From IMG/VR virus record IMGVR_UViG_3300037264_000407, positions 1-37,574 of that record: a DNA stretch of 37,574 bases; one strand, 5' to 3'. The DNA is from a virus. The position numbers were made by a program, and so were the translations under genes. Below are positions 8,645 through 30,157 of the stretch, in pieces (position 1 is the stretch's first letter; each line of letters opens with the position of its first letter). The notes below the pieces were generated by a model that made no database searches, had not been told where the DNA came from, and saw only the letters and a program-made list of their open reading frames with translations.

Positions 8645-8874
8645 GACGCACTTATGTTGTAGATGACCACACTATTGAAATTGACTCCACTGATGAGAAG
8701 GCTTATGCTAGATTCAATGGAGTCGAACTTGTCAAAATTGACAGTGATGGAATATTAGATGAGTATGAATTATTTGAAAAAGTCTGTGTCTTGGTCGGAG
8801 ATTTATTTGCTAAGTTTCTTGACCAAATAAATGAGATTGACGAAGAGGAAGACGAGGACAACGAACATGAGTAA
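8641..8874 (+). CDS. small acidic protein, 77 aa
   Basis: Starts in a 4-bp ATGA overlap with the exonuclease stop. The body is a mix of beta-like (residues 3-35) and helical hydrophobic sequence (around 45-65), and the C-terminus is strongly acidic (EIDEEEDEDNEHE). I do not recognise the family. Acidic tails can mimic DNA or recruit basic proteins; this is only a possibility. Its stop overlaps the start of the next gene, which also ends in an acidic tail. Confidence 0.75.
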   Translation: MRRTYVVDDHTIEIDSTDEKAYARFNGVELVKIDSDGILDEYELFEKVCVLVGDLFAKFLDQINEIDEEEDEDNEHE

Positions 8875-9166
8875 CGGCGGCTATATCGAAGCTCTTGGAC
8901 TATTAACAACCTTGCATCCGACTATGATTATAAATACAAATGAGCCGATGCGAATGGCAAAAGAAATTGAAACTCATGTCTTGGAAAGATTTGATAAACT
9001 AGACGCTCTTGAAGCTGCTGGAGTTGATAACTGGGAAGGATATGGTGACGCTATGGCTAAATTAGAAGAGGACGAAGAGGACGAAGAGGACGAAGAGGAC
9101 GAAGAGGACGAAGAGGACGAAGAGGACGAAGAGGACGAAGAGGACGAAGAGGACGAAGAGAAATAA
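8867..9166 (+). CDS. 99-aa protein with (EED)10 acidic repeat tail
   Basis: Last gene of the rightward operon. I start it at ATG 8867, which overlaps the preceding stop in an ATGAGTAA arrangement and has GAGGAC upstream; ATG 8831 in the same frame has no ribosome site. The first 66 residues are a small mixed domain of unknown family containing a helical stretch with METH-like spacing of methionines. The tail is ten exact copies of Glu-Glu-Asp followed by EEK, about 32 acidic residues. Because the DNA repeat unit is 9 bp, slippage would change tail length without shifting frame. DNA mimicry or nucleic-acid-binding-protein titration is a guess. Confidence 0.75.
   Translation: MSNGGYIEALGLLTTLHPTMIINTNEPMRMAKEIETHVLERFDKLDALEAAGVDNWEGYGDAMAKLEEDEEDEEDEEDEEDEEDEEDEEDEEDEEDEEK
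9065..9154 (+). repeat. 10 tandem copies of GAAGAGGAC
   Basis: Ninety bases made of ten perfect copies of the 9-mer GAAGAGGAC, encoding (EED)10. The absence of any mismatch, even at synonymous sites, suggests recent expansion by slippage, so copy number probably varies between related phages. Confidence 0.95.
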
Positions 9167-9651: not shown

Positions 9652-9979
9652 GATTTCCTATTAACTCCGAGAAGAAATTTCCGGCGGCTTCTGCTCCAAA
9701 TTTAAGCATATAGCTGCGCCATTCCATTTTAGCAATATTGCATTGACTAAGAAGCCGACCGACTGCTAAAAATAAAAAGCCTTTTGCTTTTTTAATCTCT
9801 GCGTCATTGTCAATAAAATAAACCTTTACGAACTCGGAGGCTCTTTTAGCAACAAGGACGGCTCTATTAAAAATTTCTGATTTTCTAAAAGGGTCAACAC
9901 TTTTCGTAAGTATTGGCACTCCAATAGTTATCAGGATTTTAATTATCTGTTCCGCTAGTTGCTTGTGTCGTTGATCCAC
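9581..9979 (-). CDS. hypothetical protein in the lysis region, 132 aa
   Basis: I choose the GTG at 9979, because AGAGGG lies six bases upstream; a TTG two codons earlier would abut that site. The protein is helical, basic in the middle, and has hydrophobic stretches near 10-25 (IIKILITIGVPIL) and 66-77 (GFLFLAVGRLL) that might associate with membrane. No family is recognised. It overlaps the upstream lipoprotein gene by 41 bp and the endolysin by 71 bp. Its position suggests a lysis accessory function such as a second holin or antiholin, but the hydrophobic segments are not clear membrane spans. Confidence 0.6.
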   Translation of the reverse strand: MDQRHKQLAEQIIKILITIGVPILTKSVDPFRKSEIFNRAVLVAKRASEFVKVYFIDNDAEIKKAKGFLFLAVGRLLSQCNIAKMEWRSYMLKFGAEAAGNFFSELIGNHVFKSTGSSGNLLASKTDIPTIS

Positions 9980-10283
9980 TTTCAACCCTCTCTATTTCTA
10001 AAGCAAAATCTTTGTCGGCTCCGTAGAGTTCCTCAATGTCATTCTGATCATATTTATATTGGTCTAAGTAGTCGTCACAGATTTTAAGTAAGTCTGCATC
10101 AGACTTAACGCAATCGAGTTCTTTAAATTCACTGATAACAGCTCTTGCATCAACGACTCCGCTTGCCAATGTTGGGGCGATAGCCGTCATTCCTTGTTGG
10201 TAAGCTTTTGCCGCCTCTAAACTCAAATGCGCCTGACTGCAAGCGCATGAAATCAATGGTAGAAGAAACAGCAGTCTTTTCAT
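9939..10283 (-). CDS. lipoprotein, 114 aa, lysis region
   Basis: The N-terminus MKRLLFLLPLISCAC is a lipoprotein signal with a lipobox LISC (Cys13; Cys15 is an alternative). The mature part is a soluble, mostly helical domain with two further cysteines (near 58 and 68) that could form a disulphide in the periplasm, and a polar Ser/Thr tail. It begins in a 4-bp ATGA overlap with the 50-aa lipoprotein gene and has GGGAGAG upstream. Candidate spanin component, lysis regulator or surface-exclusion lipoprotein; sequence alone does not decide. Confidence 0.75.
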   Translation of the reverse strand: MKRLLFLLPLISCACSQAHLSLEAAKAYQQGMTAIAPTLASGVVDARAVISEFKELDCVKSDADLLKICDDYLDQYKYDQNDIEELYGADKDFALEIERVESGSTTQATSGTDN

Positions 10284-10432
10284 TTATACTCTCCCGACGG
10301 GACTGTTGAATTAGGATTATAAGTAGTATCTGTCGTAGGGGTGGGCGTTGGCGTAGGGTCAGTAGGAACAGTATTACTGTTACACCCGCAAATTAAAAAA
10401 GTCAAAGCTAATCCAAAAAGCAATTTTTTCAT
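10280..10432 (-). CDS. short Pro/Thr-rich lipoprotein, Rz1-like o-spanin candidate
   Basis: Fifty residues. The start at ATG 10432 has a perfect AGGAGG upstream; the same frame is open further upstream but without a start of that quality. Residues 1-17 are a lipoprotein signal ending LICGC (lipid on Cys17). The mature peptide of about 33 residues is dominated by a Pro-Thr repeat. Small, proline-rich outer-membrane lipoproteins next to holin and endolysin genes are typical of o-spanins such as lambda Rz1. A matching i-spanin (N-terminal membrane segment plus coiled coil) is not adjacent; the protein at 24681-25085 has that shape but lies 14 kb away. Confidence 0.72.
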   Translation of the reverse strand: MKKLLFGLALTFLICGCNSNTVPTDPTPTPTPTTDTTYNPNSTVPSGEYK

Positions 10433-10695
10433 ATCGAGCCTCCTACTCCAAACCAGCCAATGATGTATGACCAAATCTGAGCAAGCATACCGCCCGCTCC
10501 GCCTGATCCTTGATTTCCTTCAACTGTTGCCGTCGAACTTGTCTGCGCGTCTACATGAGCTACAGTTGAAGCCGAGAACATCCGTCCACTTGAATCCAAC
10601 ATAATTTCTTGCGAATCGGCTATAGTAATATTAGGTTTATTAACAATGCAGCCGGAAAGCAAAAGGAAACAAGTTAGGACAAATAATTTTTTCAT
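10429..10695 (-). CDS. small lipoprotein, 88 aa
   Basis: MKKLFVLTCFLLLSGC is a textbook lipoprotein signal with lipobox LSGC (Cys16). The mature region is polar, with a Gly-rich linker (about 61-69), and ends in a hydrophobic segment, MLAQIWSYIIGWFGVGG, that could insert in a membrane. A lipid anchor at one end and a hydrophobic segment at the other is unusual; a unimolecular spanin-like linker between the membranes is one possibility, although 72 mature residues are short for that. The gene overlaps its neighbours by 4 bp on both sides and has AAGGAG upstream. Confidence 0.75.
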   Translation of the reverse strand: MKKLFVLTCFLLLSGCIVNKPNITIADSQEIMLDSSGRMFSASTVAHVDAQTSSTATVEGNQGSGGAGGMLAQIWSYIIGWFGVGGSI

Positions 10696-24221: not shown

Positions 24222-24680
24222 TTAAACTCCTTCATAGTAGCCGACATAGTGCGCTTCAATGGACGTTTGCTGAAATTTCAAAATTACATCAGGTTGTCCA
24301 AAATTCGATTGTTTAAGTGCCTCCCTTGGTCCAGATTTAGGCGACATACAAAATACAAAAGCTTCACCATCTGCGTGCTTTAATATCTCGAAGTCTCGAT
24401 CCAAATTGGTAATGACTGGACCGGACATTCGTTCGACGATATACATGTCATTGGCTATGGCGGCCTGAATTAGAATATTAAGCTCAACTTCAATAAAATA
24501 ATTATTTTTGTGCAGAACTTTTATAAATGGCCCATCAAGTCTAAATTCATAGAAATTAGGAACTTGATTAGTATCTCGATACTCCCCCTCAATAAACATA
24601 GGGTAGGTGGCCGTAAGAATTGGAACCAATTCTTTCAGAAATGATTGTTTAATCCAGCGACTTAGTCGTTCGTCTATCAT
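24222..24680 (-). CDS. neck / tail terminator candidate, 152 aa
   Basis: A soluble mixed alpha-beta protein with no recognised motif. It lies immediately upstream of the major tail protein, where the tail terminator or head-tail joining protein is usually found. The start ATG 24680 follows the upstream stop at once (TAAATG), with GAGG about 14 bases away, so translation is probably coupled. Tail terminator is a guess by position only. Confidence 0.6.
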   Translation of the reverse strand: MIDERLSRWIKQSFLKELVPILTATYPMFIEGEYRDTNQVPNFYEFRLDGPFIKVLHKNNYFIEVELNILIQAAIANDMYIVERMSGPVITNLDRDFEILKHADGEAFVFCMSPKSGPREALKQSNFGQPDVILKFQQTSIEAHYVGYYEGV

Positions 24681-25085
24681 TTAGCTGCCCATTTCCTCTA
24701 AGCGACCTTCCATCTTGGCTAATGATTTTCCAGAAGCATTCAACTCGTCGTAAATACCTGCAAAATGCTTTTCGTCCTGCTCTTCATGTTTTTTAAATAT
24801 TTCTTTTTGCTCGTTTGCCCTTCTATCTATCTTATCGGCGAGCTTTTTGTAAACGTCATCTATTCTTTTAAGTAAGCGAGTTTCCATATCAACTACATTA
24901 ATTAAGTTTTCGCCTTTCAAAGTCTGGCCGCCCGTATTCCAAGGGAGTTTCCAGCCATTTTTCCAGCAAACAAAAATAAAGAGTAGCACAGTTCCTGACC
25001 AGCCAAAATTAGCAATAAGCATACCAATGACTTTTAAAAAGTCCATTAGTGTAGCATCTAGGTTAAGTGAGGTCTGTGCATCCAT
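24681..25085 (-). CDS. membrane protein with coiled coil, 134 aa
   Basis: One membrane segment at about 19-41 (VIGMLIANFGWSGTVLLFIF), a short W/P-rich stretch, then a long charged helix (about 66-134) with heptad-like spacing. The design (N-terminal membrane anchor plus coiled coil) is like i-spanins and like some phage membrane proteins that act as holins or exclusion factors. It sits in the structural gene block next to the thermonuclease gene, far from the other lysis genes. I cannot decide between i-spanin, holin and superinfection-exclusion protein. Confidence 0.7.
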   Translation of the reverse strand: MDAQTSLNLDATLMDFLKVIGMLIANFGWSGTVLLFIFVCWKNGWKLPWNTGGQTLKGENLINVVDMETRLLKRIDDVYKKLADKIDRRANEQKEIFKKHEEQDEKHFAGIYDELNASGKSLAKMEGRLEEMGS

Positions 25086-25102
25086 TTGATTTCTCTCTAT
25101 AT

Positions 25103-25435
25103 TTAAAATATGACTTTTATAAAGCCAGCCTCTTTGATTACCGTTGCCAAATCTCGGCCATCTTCCATTGTAATATCGGCCTCATAGCGATTATAAACGG
25201 CCATCTTGTGTGATCGAAGTGTAATAACTTGCCCACCTATTAAATTTTTTACAAATTCTGTCGTTTTCAACCCGGCTTCCTTCTCTTCTGGAGTTTTGGC
25301 ATTAAAAGTTTCTGGGCAGTCAATTCCTTTTAATCTAATGCGAATTGTTACATTGACCGTAAAGCCGAGAGCAACAGCAACATCATAAGTGTCCCCGTCC
25401 ACAACTCGAAGAACTAATGCTTTATATTGATACAT
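25103..25435 (-). CDS. thermonuclease (staphylococcal nuclease homologue)
   Basis: A 110-residue single SNase domain. By comparison with staphylococcal nuclease the metal ligands and catalytic residues are present: Asp13/Asp15 in VVDGDT, Arg34 and Glu42 in RLKGIDCPE, Asp39, and probably Arg83 in YNRYEADI. It should cut DNA and RNA in a calcium-dependent manner. There is no signal peptide, so it acts in the host cytoplasm, or is packaged in the virion. The ATG 25435 has GAGGAAAAG upstream. Finding it inside the structural block, next to a membrane protein, is unusual and suggests it may be injected or act at the cell envelope. Confidence 0.9.
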   Translation of the reverse strand: MYQYKALVLRVVDGDTYDVAVALGFTVNVTIRIRLKGIDCPETFNAKTPEEKEAGLKTTEFVKNLIGGQVITLRSHKMAVYNRYEADITMEDGRDLATVIKEAGFIKVIF

Positions 25436-25456
25436 CTTTTCCTCGCAGTTTTATTA

Positions 25457-25490
25457 AGTTAGTGCGGACAGTTTATTATCCGCACTAACT
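25457..25490. terminator. 12-bp hairpin between fibre and nuclease genes
   Basis: AGTTAGTGCGGA (25457-25468) pairs perfectly with 25479-25490 around a 10-nt loop. It fills most of the 59-bp gap between the 77-aa gene and the thermonuclease gene. On the minus strand the stem is followed only by TTAATAAAA, a poor U-tract, so it may be a weak terminator or an RNA processing/stability element. Confidence 0.5.
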
Positions 25491-25494
25491 GTTA

Positions 25495-25728
25495 TTATAC
25501 TAATCTCACGTCATTAACTGAGATTGTGCCTGCACCTACAAGGCCATTAATATAGTCCACCACGCCTTGTTTAATCGTAGTAGCTTGCTGTGATTCTGTT
25601 TGACCGTAAGGAACAGAAACATTAAGGCCACCGGATGCCGGATCAGAACTGTCTGTCACAAACTGAACCGTATATTCAGCAGCCCCTGATCCATTCATTA
25701 GAGATAAGAGTAAAACGTCCGCTTTCAT
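25495..25728 (-). CDS. small protein, 77 aa
   Basis: I do not recognise this protein. Beta-rich with a Gly/Ser/Thr composition, it has no signal peptide or membrane span, although its first 12 residues are fairly hydrophobic. AAGGAAGGTG lies upstream of ATG 25728. It follows two fibre-like genes and precedes a strong hairpin, so it may be a fibre accessory or chaperone, or a small virion component. Confidence 0.6.
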   Translation of the reverse strand: MKADVLLLSLMNGSGAAEYTVQFVTDSSDPASGGLNVSVPYGQTESQQATTIKQGVVDYINGLVGAGTISVNDVRLV

Positions 25729-25749
25729 GCGTCGTCACCTTCTTTCCTT

Positions 25750-26706
25750 TTATAATTGAGAAACAAAAAGCCTGCTTAGTCTGATATTGTGCGCCCCCGC
25801 TGATATATTTCTAATAGTCTCAGCGTGTCCTAGAGATTGTGTCAGGCTTGGCAAATTTGTCGTATGGGTAGCTACGATAACTCCGTTTATAGAAAAAACA
25901 ACTTGGCCCGTGTCAGACATGTCTATTTTTAAAACATAGTTTGTGTCTATCGTTATGGGGGTAGTCGTAATAGTTGTTGTAAGTAAAGTTCCGTCGCTCG
26001 TAACGCAACGCCAAAAAGCCGTGCCATCAATATCGGTAGCATATCTAAATTCTGCGCCATGAGTTGCAACTAAAAGTGAGGCTGCACTTGGGTTTGCACT
26101 AAAAAGACCGAAATGGATTCTTGCGTCTATAAGGTCAGCAGCTAAAGCCCCAGTTCTCATTCGACATTCCCATATCGGGGTTTGTCGTCTTTGAACTTGT
26201 GTAAATGCCGAAGAAATCCAACCTGCGTCCCTATTAATCATTGCTGCGGATGCAAAATTAATAAATTGGCCGGTCGCCGACTCAAATACAGTTCCAGTGC
26301 CATTGATTGTCGGAGTTATCATCCCTACCGCTATCGTTGAAATTGCACCAGCCTGTTGCTGAATATACCATTGTCTTGTAATGCCGGGAAGACTGTCAGA
26401 CATATTAGCTTTTAAGTTTAAAGCCGCCTGCTGTGCCAAGCTAACAGGTTTATTTGCGTCTGACGTATTATCAACATCTCCTAAACCTACCGATGCTTTA
26501 CTATCGACTGCATTGGCCATGTCATAGAATACAGAATTTGTTAATCTGTAAGTTTTTCCTGTGTCCGCGCAAAAAACTATACTTCCTTCCGGCCAAGATG
26601 CCGACCGTTCTGATTCAAGATCGCACCTAAAAAACGGAAGAAGGTCAGAAGTTATTTCAGCAAAACAATTTGCCGATAATAGAAGTAATAGTAGAATTTT
26701 TTTCAT
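25750..26706 (-). CDS. fibre-like protein with Sec signal peptide, 318 aa
   Basis: The N-terminus MKKILLLLLLSANCFA|E is a classical signal peptide with predicted cleavage after Ala16. The segment LGDVDNTSDANKPVSLAQQA (about 75-95) is a motif common in tail-fibre proteins. The C-terminal half (from about 150) has the pattern of a concanavalin/LamG-like sandwich (FRYATDIDGTAFWRCVTSDG, TNYVLKIDMSDTGQVVFSIN), a typical glycan-binding fold. AAGGTG precedes ATG 26706, and the start directly follows the stop of the larger fibre gene. A secreted or periplasm-directed fibre is odd for a virion protein. Confidence 0.8.
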   Translation of the reverse strand: MKKILLLLLLSANCFAEITSDLLPFFRCDLESERSASWPEGSIVFCADTGKTYRLTNSVFYDMANAVDSKASVGLGDVDNTSDANKPVSLAQQAALNLKANMSDSLPGITRQWYIQQQAGAISTIAVGMITPTINGTGTVFESATGQFINFASAAMINRDAGWISSAFTQVQRRQTPIWECRMRTGALAADLIDARIHFGLFSANPSAASLLVATHGAEFRYATDIDGTAFWRCVTSDGTLLTTTITTTPITIDTNYVLKIDMSDTGQVVFSINGVIVATHTTNLPSLTQSLGHAETIRNISAGAHNIRLSRLFVSQL

Positions 26707-29400
26707 TTAAATCACCTTATACATGGCAACGCCGCTTACGACGTTATCGCCATTTGATCCGCTTTGGAATTCAATTTTAATTGTGTCATTTGCAATAACC
26801 GCTGTAATTGCACAAGCTCCGAATGAAGTAGTTGATGCCCGTCTAGTGGCCGAACCTTTTGCATCTACTACAGCACCAAAATTAGATGCAACAGGTAGAT
26901 TTATTTCAAAACTCGTATTAGTGTTTGTGTTCGTGCAATTAACTGTTACCGTAAAATAATATTCAACGTAAACACCATTTCTGGTAAAATAGCTTCCGAT
27001 GGCCGAACTACTATCAACATTGACCGTTGTGCTAACAGTTGGAGTGAAATCTCCTGGAGTTTGCGATAAAATCGTTTTGACCTGTGCTGCTGTTAAATCT
27101 GTTGGGTCGCCAGTTCCTGCGCCGTTAGCTCTACCTTTAATTGTATCGGCAGCCATATCTGCCGCTTTAACATTAGTCACTGCATCATTTGCAATAGTCA
27201 GTGCATTACTTCCAGCACTGGCAGTTACGTCCCCAGCCAAAGCTGCCCGTTGAAGATTTCCGCTACCATCCATCGAAAGAGTGGTATTTAAAAGAATAGT
27301 TTCGGGGTCGCCAGTAGCTGCAGTGTCTCTTCCGATTAAAGAATCAGTCACTATATTTTGAATTTTAGCAAATGTCACTCCGTCATCATTTAATGAAATA
27401 TCGGGAGTCGCTCCGCCAGTCGAAGAAATCGGGGCCGTTCCGCTAACATTAGTAACGGTTCCATTCCCAGTTCCAGCCCCAATGGTAGCTCGAACTGTTG
27501 CCGCATCAGCATCGTCTAAAAATGTCCTAGCAAAAGCACTTAAATCAGTTAAAGCTGCCGTCCCACTTCCAGTAAAATAAGGTAGTTTGTCGGCGGCAGA
27601 AATAAGACCGGCGATGGCCGTCAATTCAGAATCTAAGGGTTGTTTTCCATTAATCTGGGTTTGAACGTCCGAAGTAATCGTGCTTAAATAATCAAACTCG
27701 GTGGAAGTAACTCCGCCACCGGCTATCTTGATTGCGTCAATTCCAGAACTTAAAGTTGTTGCAAATGACCCAGTGCCACTCCCAGTTACCGCACCAGTTA
27801 AAGTTATTGTTTGATCCCCTGTATTAGTCCCAGTTGCTGTGCCACCCCCGCTTGCAAAGTCTGCGCCAGTTAAAGCGGCATTAAACTCTGCAAGCGAACC
27901 TGTAATTCCAACAATACTCGTTTGGTCGCCGGTGTTCGTCCCCATTAAATTTAAGAGAGTTTTCGCTTGAACTGTGGTTAAATCTTCCGGGTCGCCAGTA
28001 GCCGCAGTTGTTCGTCCTTTAAAAGTCGCTGTAGGGACATCAGCTAATTTTGAATTACTTACAGAATTGGCCGCAATAGTAGCAACCTGAGAACCACTTC
28101 CCGGTCCGGCAGTAACATCACCAGTTAATTGAGTTATTGCATTAAGAGGAACTTCAGTGGCGTCAATAGTATATTTAACAATTTTAATAAATGTCCCATC
28201 GAACCAAAAATGGGTAAGTGTTGCTTCTTCTAATATGTAATCAATGCCGCTGTTGTCAAAATTATTATTTGAGATCGAATTGGTGTAATCTTTAATAGTA
28301 ACCGGATCAGAAGTATTAAAAACATAAAACTCAAATTTGTTATCCGAGAGTTCGGTTGAATCCATATCAAAAAGCAACTCGGTTGGGCTATTTCCTAAAG
28401 TTAGTGCGCCGCCAGATATATTATTAAGTGTCACCATGTTCCCATTAATTTTAATGCTATCTGCAGTGTCATCTATGTCAACCTGTCGGCCATCTAAAAT
28501 CTGAGTCCCGCCCATATGAAGTATTGGAATATCTGGTGTGGCGGAATTATCCTGACCAATCTCGAAAACGGTAAAACCGTCTGTAGTTTTAAACATTGGG
28601 TCATTTTTACTTATACCGCTCATTTGTAGCTGATAAGTCCTAACTGCCGCCGAACCAATAGAGTTATCATCAATTGTTGAAATTAGCACATCGGTGTTTA
28701 ACATGTCGTCTAATATAACGTCGCTTAGATGCGTCGAATCTCTAAATGCAATTCTATTAATAAAATCTTTTTTAATGGTTATTGACCCCAGAGTAGTTCC
28801 GAGATCTAAACCGCCTAGTGCCCAAATATTTTGGTTATAAGTCATGGGCTTCATTAAAGTATTAACAATTTGAAAAGTTCCGTCCGTTGTCATTTCAAAG
28901 ACTATATCAGAGCTAGGAATAGAGGAATTAGTAATACGAAATCCAACTTTATAGCTGCCGCTGGCTCCGTTTAAAGTTAAGTATTTATTCCCACCGGATG
29001 CAGAAAAATTCCATGTATGGGGACCAGTCGCAGTATCGCCGGCTTTTAAAAGATACAAGCTGTTCGATTGGCTCTGAGAGTAAACCGGAGTCATTGTTAA
29101 ATTGCCTGCGCCATCGCTAATAGGCGCAGTTCCACTCGCTCCCAGAGTTGACAAATCCTCAACATTAACTAAGAAAATTGCGGCTGTAGTTAAAATATCG
29201 TCAAATTCTAACTCATTCCCGCCAAGATAAATTTTATCAACTCTGATATAACTGGGCACAGTCGAACTATCAGAAGCAACGACATTAGATCGCGCACTCG
29301 TGAAACGAGGGTCTTTTATCAAAATAACATTCTCGCCCGAATAAAGATTAAGCGGCAAGAATGTTATCAGTGATGTTAACAATAACATCAAATGTCGCAT
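26707..29400 (-). CDS. large fibre-like protein with Sec signal peptide, 897 aa
   Basis: I start at ATG 29400, with AAGGAG eight bases upstream. The first 22 residues ([22 protein letters not shown]) form a signal peptide. The rest is Gly/Ala/Ser/Thr-rich fibre sequence. Three related modules carry the KxKGR/GxxxGDP pattern: near 423-480 (LTGDVTAG, then [16 protein letters not shown]), near 690 ([13 protein letters not shown]), and near 719-775 (LAGDVTAS, then [17 protein letters not shown]). TGTNTGDQT occurs twice. The C-terminal 110 residues look like a compact beta domain. Likely a receptor-binding or surface fibre; the signal peptide is unexpected. Confidence 0.82.
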
Positions 29401-30157
29401 CCAAGTTCTCCTTAAGAACAAATCCGATTTTTTGAGTAAGTTCATTCTCTGGCCTATCAAATGTCATTCCGCCTGCTACCCCAAGATAAATGTCTTTATA
29501 ATCAATATTTGGTGCCCCTAAAATTGTAAGATTTCTCACAATATTATTTCGAGTATGATATATTTTTCCATTAGCTATATTTGTAACGATTCCCATTGCT
29601 GGCCTATCGCGGTCATCCTCTGAGGCTAAATATAAATCTTGCCCATTTGCAAAAATTAAATGCCCTACATTGATAGTGTCGCCAGCCGATTCACCCCAAG
29701 CCAAATCCGGTGACAAGTCAGGCGAAATAATGATATTGGAGTTGCCTTGTCCAACTTGATTTTCTAATCTTTCGACGATTATTAGGGCTACTCGGTCCTC
29801 TGGATAATCAACGACCTTTTTAACTTCAAAACGCTCATTACCTAAAATAACGTGATCGTCAACTTTTGGCTCGACTAAACCTAAATCAATATAATCAAGA
29901 GCAATCAATTGTGTCTTTGAGTCAAAAAATCCGCCATAAGTAAAATTCTTATTTGCGGCGACATAGGCAAGATCATAAATAAATTGTCTTGCCATTTTCT
30001 CAGGGAATATAAGGGCCAACCTAATATTAATTGAGAAGCAAACCTGCGCGATTGCGCCGGTATCTAAATCACGAGTTTTGGACACGAATGAACGATAAGT
30101 AAGACTACTTCCGTATCTTCTTTTAAGTGAGTAGATTGTGTTTGCTAAAAATAACAT
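29348..30157 (-). CDS. head-closure protein fused to a decoration-like beta domain, 269 aa
   Basis: Residues 1-130 have the pattern of small phage head-tail joining proteins ([12 protein letters not shown] near 14-25, [20 protein letters not shown] near 74-93, [13 protein letters not shown] near 103-115). Residues about 150-269 follow a different, recognisable pattern of an all-beta domain found in decoration and fibre proteins ([42 protein letters not shown]). So it looks like a fusion. It directly follows the coat gene. There is no convincing ribosome site before ATG 30157, and a strong hairpin lies just upstream. It overlaps the large fibre gene by 53 bp. Confidence 0.68.

Follow-up and report, generated by a model that had tools for sequence, protein, structure and literature searches.

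Phage-type fiber repeats joined to a signal peptide have been described in Bdellovibrio bacteriovorus, where the mosaic adhesive trimer (MAT) fibers, which end in diverse C-terminal tips, are displayed on the bacterial surface (PMC10769870). The two fiber-like proteins considered here, fib897 and fib318, share this combination of signal peptide (SP) and repeats, but they are encoded within the structural operon of a phage, between its head-closure and tail genes, whereas MAT fibers are encoded by the predator itself and carry a conserved N-terminal beta domain of ~130 aa. Membership of fib897 and fib318 in the MAT family was rejected because this defining domain is absent, and an HMM of five presumed MAT N-termini yielded no match in fib897, fib318, gp68 of the Bdellovibrio phage phi1422 (discussed later), or the other phage fibers bearing SPs. 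MAT-like adhesins of 1.5-2.5 k aa, with an SP, phage-fiber repeats and, in several, an LTYQGR-type domain, are present in Bdellovibrionota genomes (L160-L165).

Among phage products, Llp of T5 is an exported lipoprotein that blocks the receptor; it resembles the fibers studied here in being phage-encoded, exported and receptor-related, but it is a small lipoprotein and no fiber. We know of no precedent for a Sec-exported tail fiber in a tailed phage, and no account of an SP as a feature of tail-fiber loci was found in the literature (open PMC papers). Phage DGR proteins lacked signal peptides in one survey (PMC6199706). The tail fiber of siphophage ctIqW946 (MW202657; locus L171, 12818-13978) has a fiber repeat like that of fib897 and a tip that is 38% identical to the C-terminal 200 aa of fib318; unlike the proteins described here, it has no SP and is placed after the central tail protein.

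The fib897 and fib318 genes lie in IMGVR_UViG_3300037264_000407, the whole 37,574 bp of which we refer to as the window. It represents a tailed phage whose capsid is P22-coat-like and whose terminase is of gpA type, and which also has a portal and a long tape-measure protein. Along the minus strand, the genes for terminase, portal, capsid, and the head-closure homologue (HC) are followed by fib897, fib318, a 77-aa protein, and an SNase-like nuclease, and then by a membrane protein, a tail-completion-type gene (TC), the major tail protein, tape measure, hub proteins, and lysis genes (Table 1). The window encodes ParB, and no recognized integrase was found in it. Identity to phage isolates is no more than about 34%, and comparison of the capsid and terminase with Bdellovibrionota, Pseudomonadota, and Bacteroidota genomes gave only distant matches. 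Directly after a holin-like gene, the minus strand encodes three short exported proteins (9939-10695), two with a clear lipobox and one Rz1-like, which indicate that the host is a diderm; in any case, the phage uses the Sec pathway of its host. A 111-aa protein encoded on the plus strand (8831-9166) ends in a long DEE repeat tract.

Table 1. Features of the fiber locus, in window coordinates or, for protein layouts, in residues
Feature	Position	Strand	Details
HC, head-closure homologue	29348..30157	-	C-terminal extension; 269 aa vs ~140-185 in many relatives
fib897 ribosome site, AAGGAG	29401..29413	-	7 nt from ATG 29400
fib897	29400-26707	-	897-aa fiber-like protein, ORF as placed in the preliminary description
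fib897 signal peptide	29338..29400	-	likely cut ^GENV; the end of HC, in another frame, covers its first 53 bp
fib897 layout			SP, aa 1-21; N-terminal region, 22-~420; fiber repeats, ~420-785; C-terminal tip, ~785-897
fib318	26706-25750	-	318-aa short fiber, ORF as placed in the preliminary description
fib318 signal peptide	26659..26706	-	MKKILLLLLLSANCFA^E; AGGTGA ribosome site 5 nt upstream of ATG
fib318 layout			SP, 1-16; short N-terminal region; NVDNTSDANKPVS fiber motif, ~65-105; tail-fiber tip, ~118-317
Inserted cassette, HC-TC	24681..29347	-	fib897, fib318, 77-aa protein, SNase-like nuclease, membrane protein
SNase/thermonuclease-like gene	25103-25435	-	in cassette with both fibers; no signal peptide
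Membrane protein	24681-25085	-	one helix + coiled coil; within cassette
TC, tail-completion-type gene	24222..24680	-	

Signal peptides on two fiber-like proteins

Both proteins were originally described as starting with a Sec signal, and a rule-based tripartite scorer of our own making (cut-off 9) agreed, giving a strong score of 11.8 to fib318 and a moderate 9.2 to fib897. Among the 37 window genes, the only others to reach 9 were those for the three lysis-region (lipo)proteins. The scorer passed 10 of 11 known E. coli-type signal peptides, failing PhoA, and assigned a score of at least 9 to 3 of 709 cytoplasmic virion homologues. As to the cleavage sites proposed earlier, the predicted cut before E in fib318 was retained, whereas LYSG^E in fib897 would place Tyr at -3, and LYS^GEN, with Leu in that position, is likelier. 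Neither N-terminus has the lipobox with a +1 Cys that marks a lipoprotein: LSANC in fib318 lacks G, A, or S at -1, and there is no Cys at the fib897 cleavage site.

The ribosome sites are good and stand exactly at the two starts, as had been reported. The fib318 frame opens at its ATG (26706), with a stop codon directly upstream; in the fib897 frame, 12 ATG, GTG, and TTG codons were examined, and only ATG 29400 has a Shine-Dalgarno sequence. Other starts, which would leave the protein without its signal, were ruled out, as none has a ribosome site, which bears out the earlier view that the signals are not artifacts of start choice. When the SP region of fib897 was recoded by synonymous changes in HC that keep the second frame open, 211 of 2715 recodings (8%) were also SP-like, so fib897 alone is suggestive; the pair is convincing because fib318 stands alongside it, the ribosome site is unique, and the arrangement recurs elsewhere.

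The bodies of the two proteins are fiber-like. Tail-fiber PHROGs 2631 and 36707 were matched by fib897, and several tail-fiber and minor-tail PHROGs by fib318, residues 230-294 of which also gave a weak SO2946-like_C match. Fiber repeats or motifs are present in both, and the tip of fib318 is of tail-fiber type. Relatives were sought for the N-terminal region and the tip of fib897 and none were found, nor did the N-terminal region of fib318 have relatives in the sequence data searched. A sequence search against solved structures returned nothing of use, and the structure of fib318 predicted from one sequence had a pLDDT of 33. From their sequences, fib897 and fib318 are very probably real fiber-type receptor-binding proteins that are exported via the Sec pathway.

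Export had been called unexpected for such proteins, and the base rates agree. A convincing SP was present in one of ~43 phage fibers with fib897-type repeats (L027, from a Bacteroidota-looking phage) and in none of 73 closed ORFs with the fib318 motif, the single formal match among these being a false positive by inspection; the genes directly after generic phage fibers yielded 1 in 86, a doubtful match. SPs on phage fibers are thus rare, and the idea that all phage fibers with these repeats carry signals was rejected on the first two counts.

An insert between head-closure and tail-completion genes

The location of the fibers between head-closure and tail genes, already noted as odd, proved more striking than claimed. 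HC and TC abut in 58 of 61 capsid relatives, and in the window they are separated by a 4.7-kb cassette, which therefore looks like an insert. The C-terminal extension of HC has no relatives that we could find. Relatives also house accessory genes in this region. Two members of the clade to which the window belongs have HC joined to adhesive-type domains, with no SP (DUF6923 repeats in L120, LRR/PKD in L125). Other relatives encode separate exported proteins in the structural module (L073, L109), and L096 has several signal-bearing genes in the terminase-portal interval.

Further unusual genes were encountered around these modules. One-helix proteins similar to the membrane protein of the cassette lie between capsid and HC in L002, L120, L125, and L130, and may be holin-like or linked to the host membrane. 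Inserted genes adjoin HC/TC at L067 (12235-13373) and L130 (6036-7644), one of them glycosyltransferase-like, and are accompanied by LYLQSGQFTSTIK repeat proteins that form fusions with TC or HC. Relatives also encode, among their structural genes, exported proteins whose tail is PEP-CTERM-like (L109, 13303-14321; L143, 951-1502), apparently phage cargo that uses host exosortase sorting. Several capsid relatives encode, upstream of terminase, a protein of ~332 aa that carries a twin-arginine-like signal (MNRRGFLG...): L064 (581-1579), L094 (1432-2430), and L123 (729-1748).

Recurrence in Bdellovibrionota and Bacteroidota-type phages

The search for recurrence was entered through a relative of fib318 in a Bdellovibrionota genome. 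A repeated layout, in which a fiber or adaptor without an SP is followed at once by a large SP-bearing fiber-like protein, was found in three Bdellovibrionota prophages (G068, G062, and G127), the phylum being that of each search's center genome. Here and below, the loci came to light partly through one another, and their counts are not an unbiased census. Prophage G068 also exists as a free IMG/VR viral contig (L340), G062 has a tandem of two SP-bearing proteins, and G127 is of podophage type; the environmental podophage ct8d5349 has the same layout, with an SP-bearing fiber that shares domains with the proteins of all three. G194 is an exception to this layout, and L327 does not fit the picture of a split, exported fiber. 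In the window, the order HC, fib897, fib318 resembles a base without an SP followed by SP-bearing fibers in position only, but the HC extension is not a recognized adaptor.

The cultured, lytic Bdellovibrio phage phi1422 (JQ177062) has the same layout: gp67, a fiber without an SP that shares the NVDNTSDANKP motif, is directly followed by gp68, which has one. Like the window, phi1422 thus has an SP-bearing, multi-domain fiber-like protein at its fiber locus, but it is a myophage, the pair lies at the baseplate end, and gp68 has no sequence match to fib897 or fib318. The JQ177062 annotation gives gp67 as a tail-fiber protein and gp68 as a hypothetical protein, and the paper on phi1422 does not mention a signal peptide. 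The fiber regions of four sister phages of phi1422, from Vibrio, Aeromonas, and Pectobacterium, carry no signal (0/4).

A short adaptor, WFxTGxKPTQxQFW, served as the guide to Bacteroidota-type loci. Where the adaptor is its own gene, SP-bearing fibers were present in eight of nine loci, adjoining the adaptor or after a few lysis genes, and where it is fused to the fiber they were present in none of seven (Fisher p=0.0007); the five viral contigs of this group are labeled Bacteroidota-type by gene content and signal style, not by a named host. This dichotomy suggests that the SP-bearing fiber is the distal, host-recognition part moved to a gene of its own. Several of these fibers have in common a ~50-aa module right after the signal, and that of L290 ends in a minor-tail-protein tip, with BppL_N/minor-tail matches. 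The genome that holds G026, one of the Bacteroidota-type loci, was listed as Bdellovibrionota, probably because of a binning error. Six Pseudomonadota gp48 prophages had no such SP-bearing fibers (0/6).

A protein whose disulfides form outside the cytoplasm tends to have an even number of cysteines, which gives an indirect test of export. When only sequences containing cysteine were considered, the number was even in 12 of 14 mature SP-bearing fibers, both window proteins included, vs 21 of 55 fibers without an SP (p=0.0016). Cysteine density was higher in the Bdellovibrionota-type SP set (p=0.0003) but not raised in the Bacteroidota set, which does not fit the picture of a split, exported fiber. 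Taken with the window, recurrence among phages of predatory bacteria (Bdellovibrio and related forms) and among those of Bacteroidota type points to a class of exported phage fibers that has received little notice.

Two further loci were noted. In two Bacteroidota prophages, a DNA adenine methylase-like gene comes after tandem SP-bearing fibers (L325, 5379-10225; L326, 183-5516). At L007 (4511-6190), a tailspike-like protein of beta-helix type has an apparent SP (MLNIFILLLLACVSGFA), and the phage has further exported genes; this protein is possibly a member of the class from a different group of hosts.

Possible roles of the putatively exported fibers

The preliminary description had offered surface display, secreted decoys or adhesins, and late addition as explanations. 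That export is real is supported by the starts, the anatomy of the signals, their recurrence at fiber loci, and the cysteine parity, and among these options the data lean to receptor-binding fibers. Our tentative interpretation is that such proteins may be distal host-recognition fibers, split from a virion-anchored base, that are exported and join the particle at lysis; for fib897 and fib318 themselves, we infer a distal-fiber role as the most likely one. The base would be assembled in the cytoplasm, as HC with its C-terminal extension here and as a short adaptor or tail fiber without an SP elsewhere. The distal fiber, from its own gene, would be exported and fold outside the cytoplasm in an oxidizing compartment and, being outside, would meet particles only at or after lysis, when the mixing of the two would allow it to join them. 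For T4 and P22, fibers or tailspikes are known to be added late in vitro. The only other recognizable candidates for host binding in the window phage are its tail hub proteins. Several points stand against the distal-fiber interpretation: it has no known precedent and would require an as yet hypothetical docking step after lysis; the N-terminal regions of fib897 and fib318 and the HC extension, for which no relatives were found, yielded no recognizable docking pair; the SP-bearing genes of the window occupy the neck and not the tip of the tail; the overlapping frame of fib897 gives SP-like recodings in 8% of cases; and L327, G194, and the cysteine density of the Bacteroidota set are misfits. 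More broadly, and with somewhat less assurance, we suggest that in Bdellovibrionota, Bacteroidota, and perhaps further diderm hosts, tailed phages could possess a two-compartment receptor-binding apparatus, consisting of a cytoplasmic particle with its base plug and a Sec-exported, oxidized fiber that is docked at lysis.

Nearly as likely as a distal-fiber role is that these proteins are exported adhesins that never enter the virion, the infected cell either carrying them on its surface or releasing them. There they might mask receptors, providing superinfection exclusion or shielding progeny from debris, or might equip a lysogen with a new adhesin, as MAT fibers do for Bdellovibrio. The MAT proteins establish that an SP with a phage-type fiber works on a bacterial surface (PMC10769870), and an SP is combined with the same repeats in the 1.5-2.5 k aa Bdellovibrionota proteins; also in keeping with adhesins are the presence of ParB in a window with no recognized integrase and the other exported cargo in the structural module of relatives (L073, L109). 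However, the class is present in phi1422, a lytic phage, and no surface anchor (lipobox or MAT domain) was seen in fib897 or fib318. In addition, SP-bearing fibers elsewhere occupy the distal-fiber position, and do so only when the adaptor has been split off; for this reason we favor, without proving, putative exported receptor-binding fibers over host-adhesin cargo.

It is improbable that the N-termini are merely SP-like and belong to cytoplasmic virion fibers, the hydrophobic stretch being a membrane-proximal or docking element or a product of chance. The overlapping frame does favor hydrophobicity at the N-terminus of fib897, but fib318 has a textbook signal peptide, SPs recur at equivalent positions in unrelated phages and are absent from fused or control fibers, and the SP-bearing fibers mostly have even numbers of cysteines. 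Least probable of all is that the fibers are morons, surface proteins taken from a host not long ago, that serve no phage function and have landed in a permissive head-tail site: the contact between HC and TC in nearly all relatives, the insert-like cassette, and its SNase-like gene would suit such an origin, but the tip of fib318 has its closest match in a phage tail fiber, the tandem, co-oriented fibers are tightly coupled to the structural operon and have ribosome sites, and the same theme appears in other phages.

If these proteins are indeed exported fibers, a class of phage adhesins would be used only after leaving the cytoplasm, contrary to the textbook picture in which that compartment brings together every part of a tailed phage. 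Lysis would then be a step of assembly, or else infected cells would bear phage adhesins on their surface. Host-range prediction would be affected, as such genes, phi1422 gp68 among them, tend to be annotated as hypothetical proteins. The finding is also relevant to phages whose hosts are predators or Bacteroidota and to the origin of the Bdellovibrio MAT fibers, and phi1422 provides a cultured, lytic test case.
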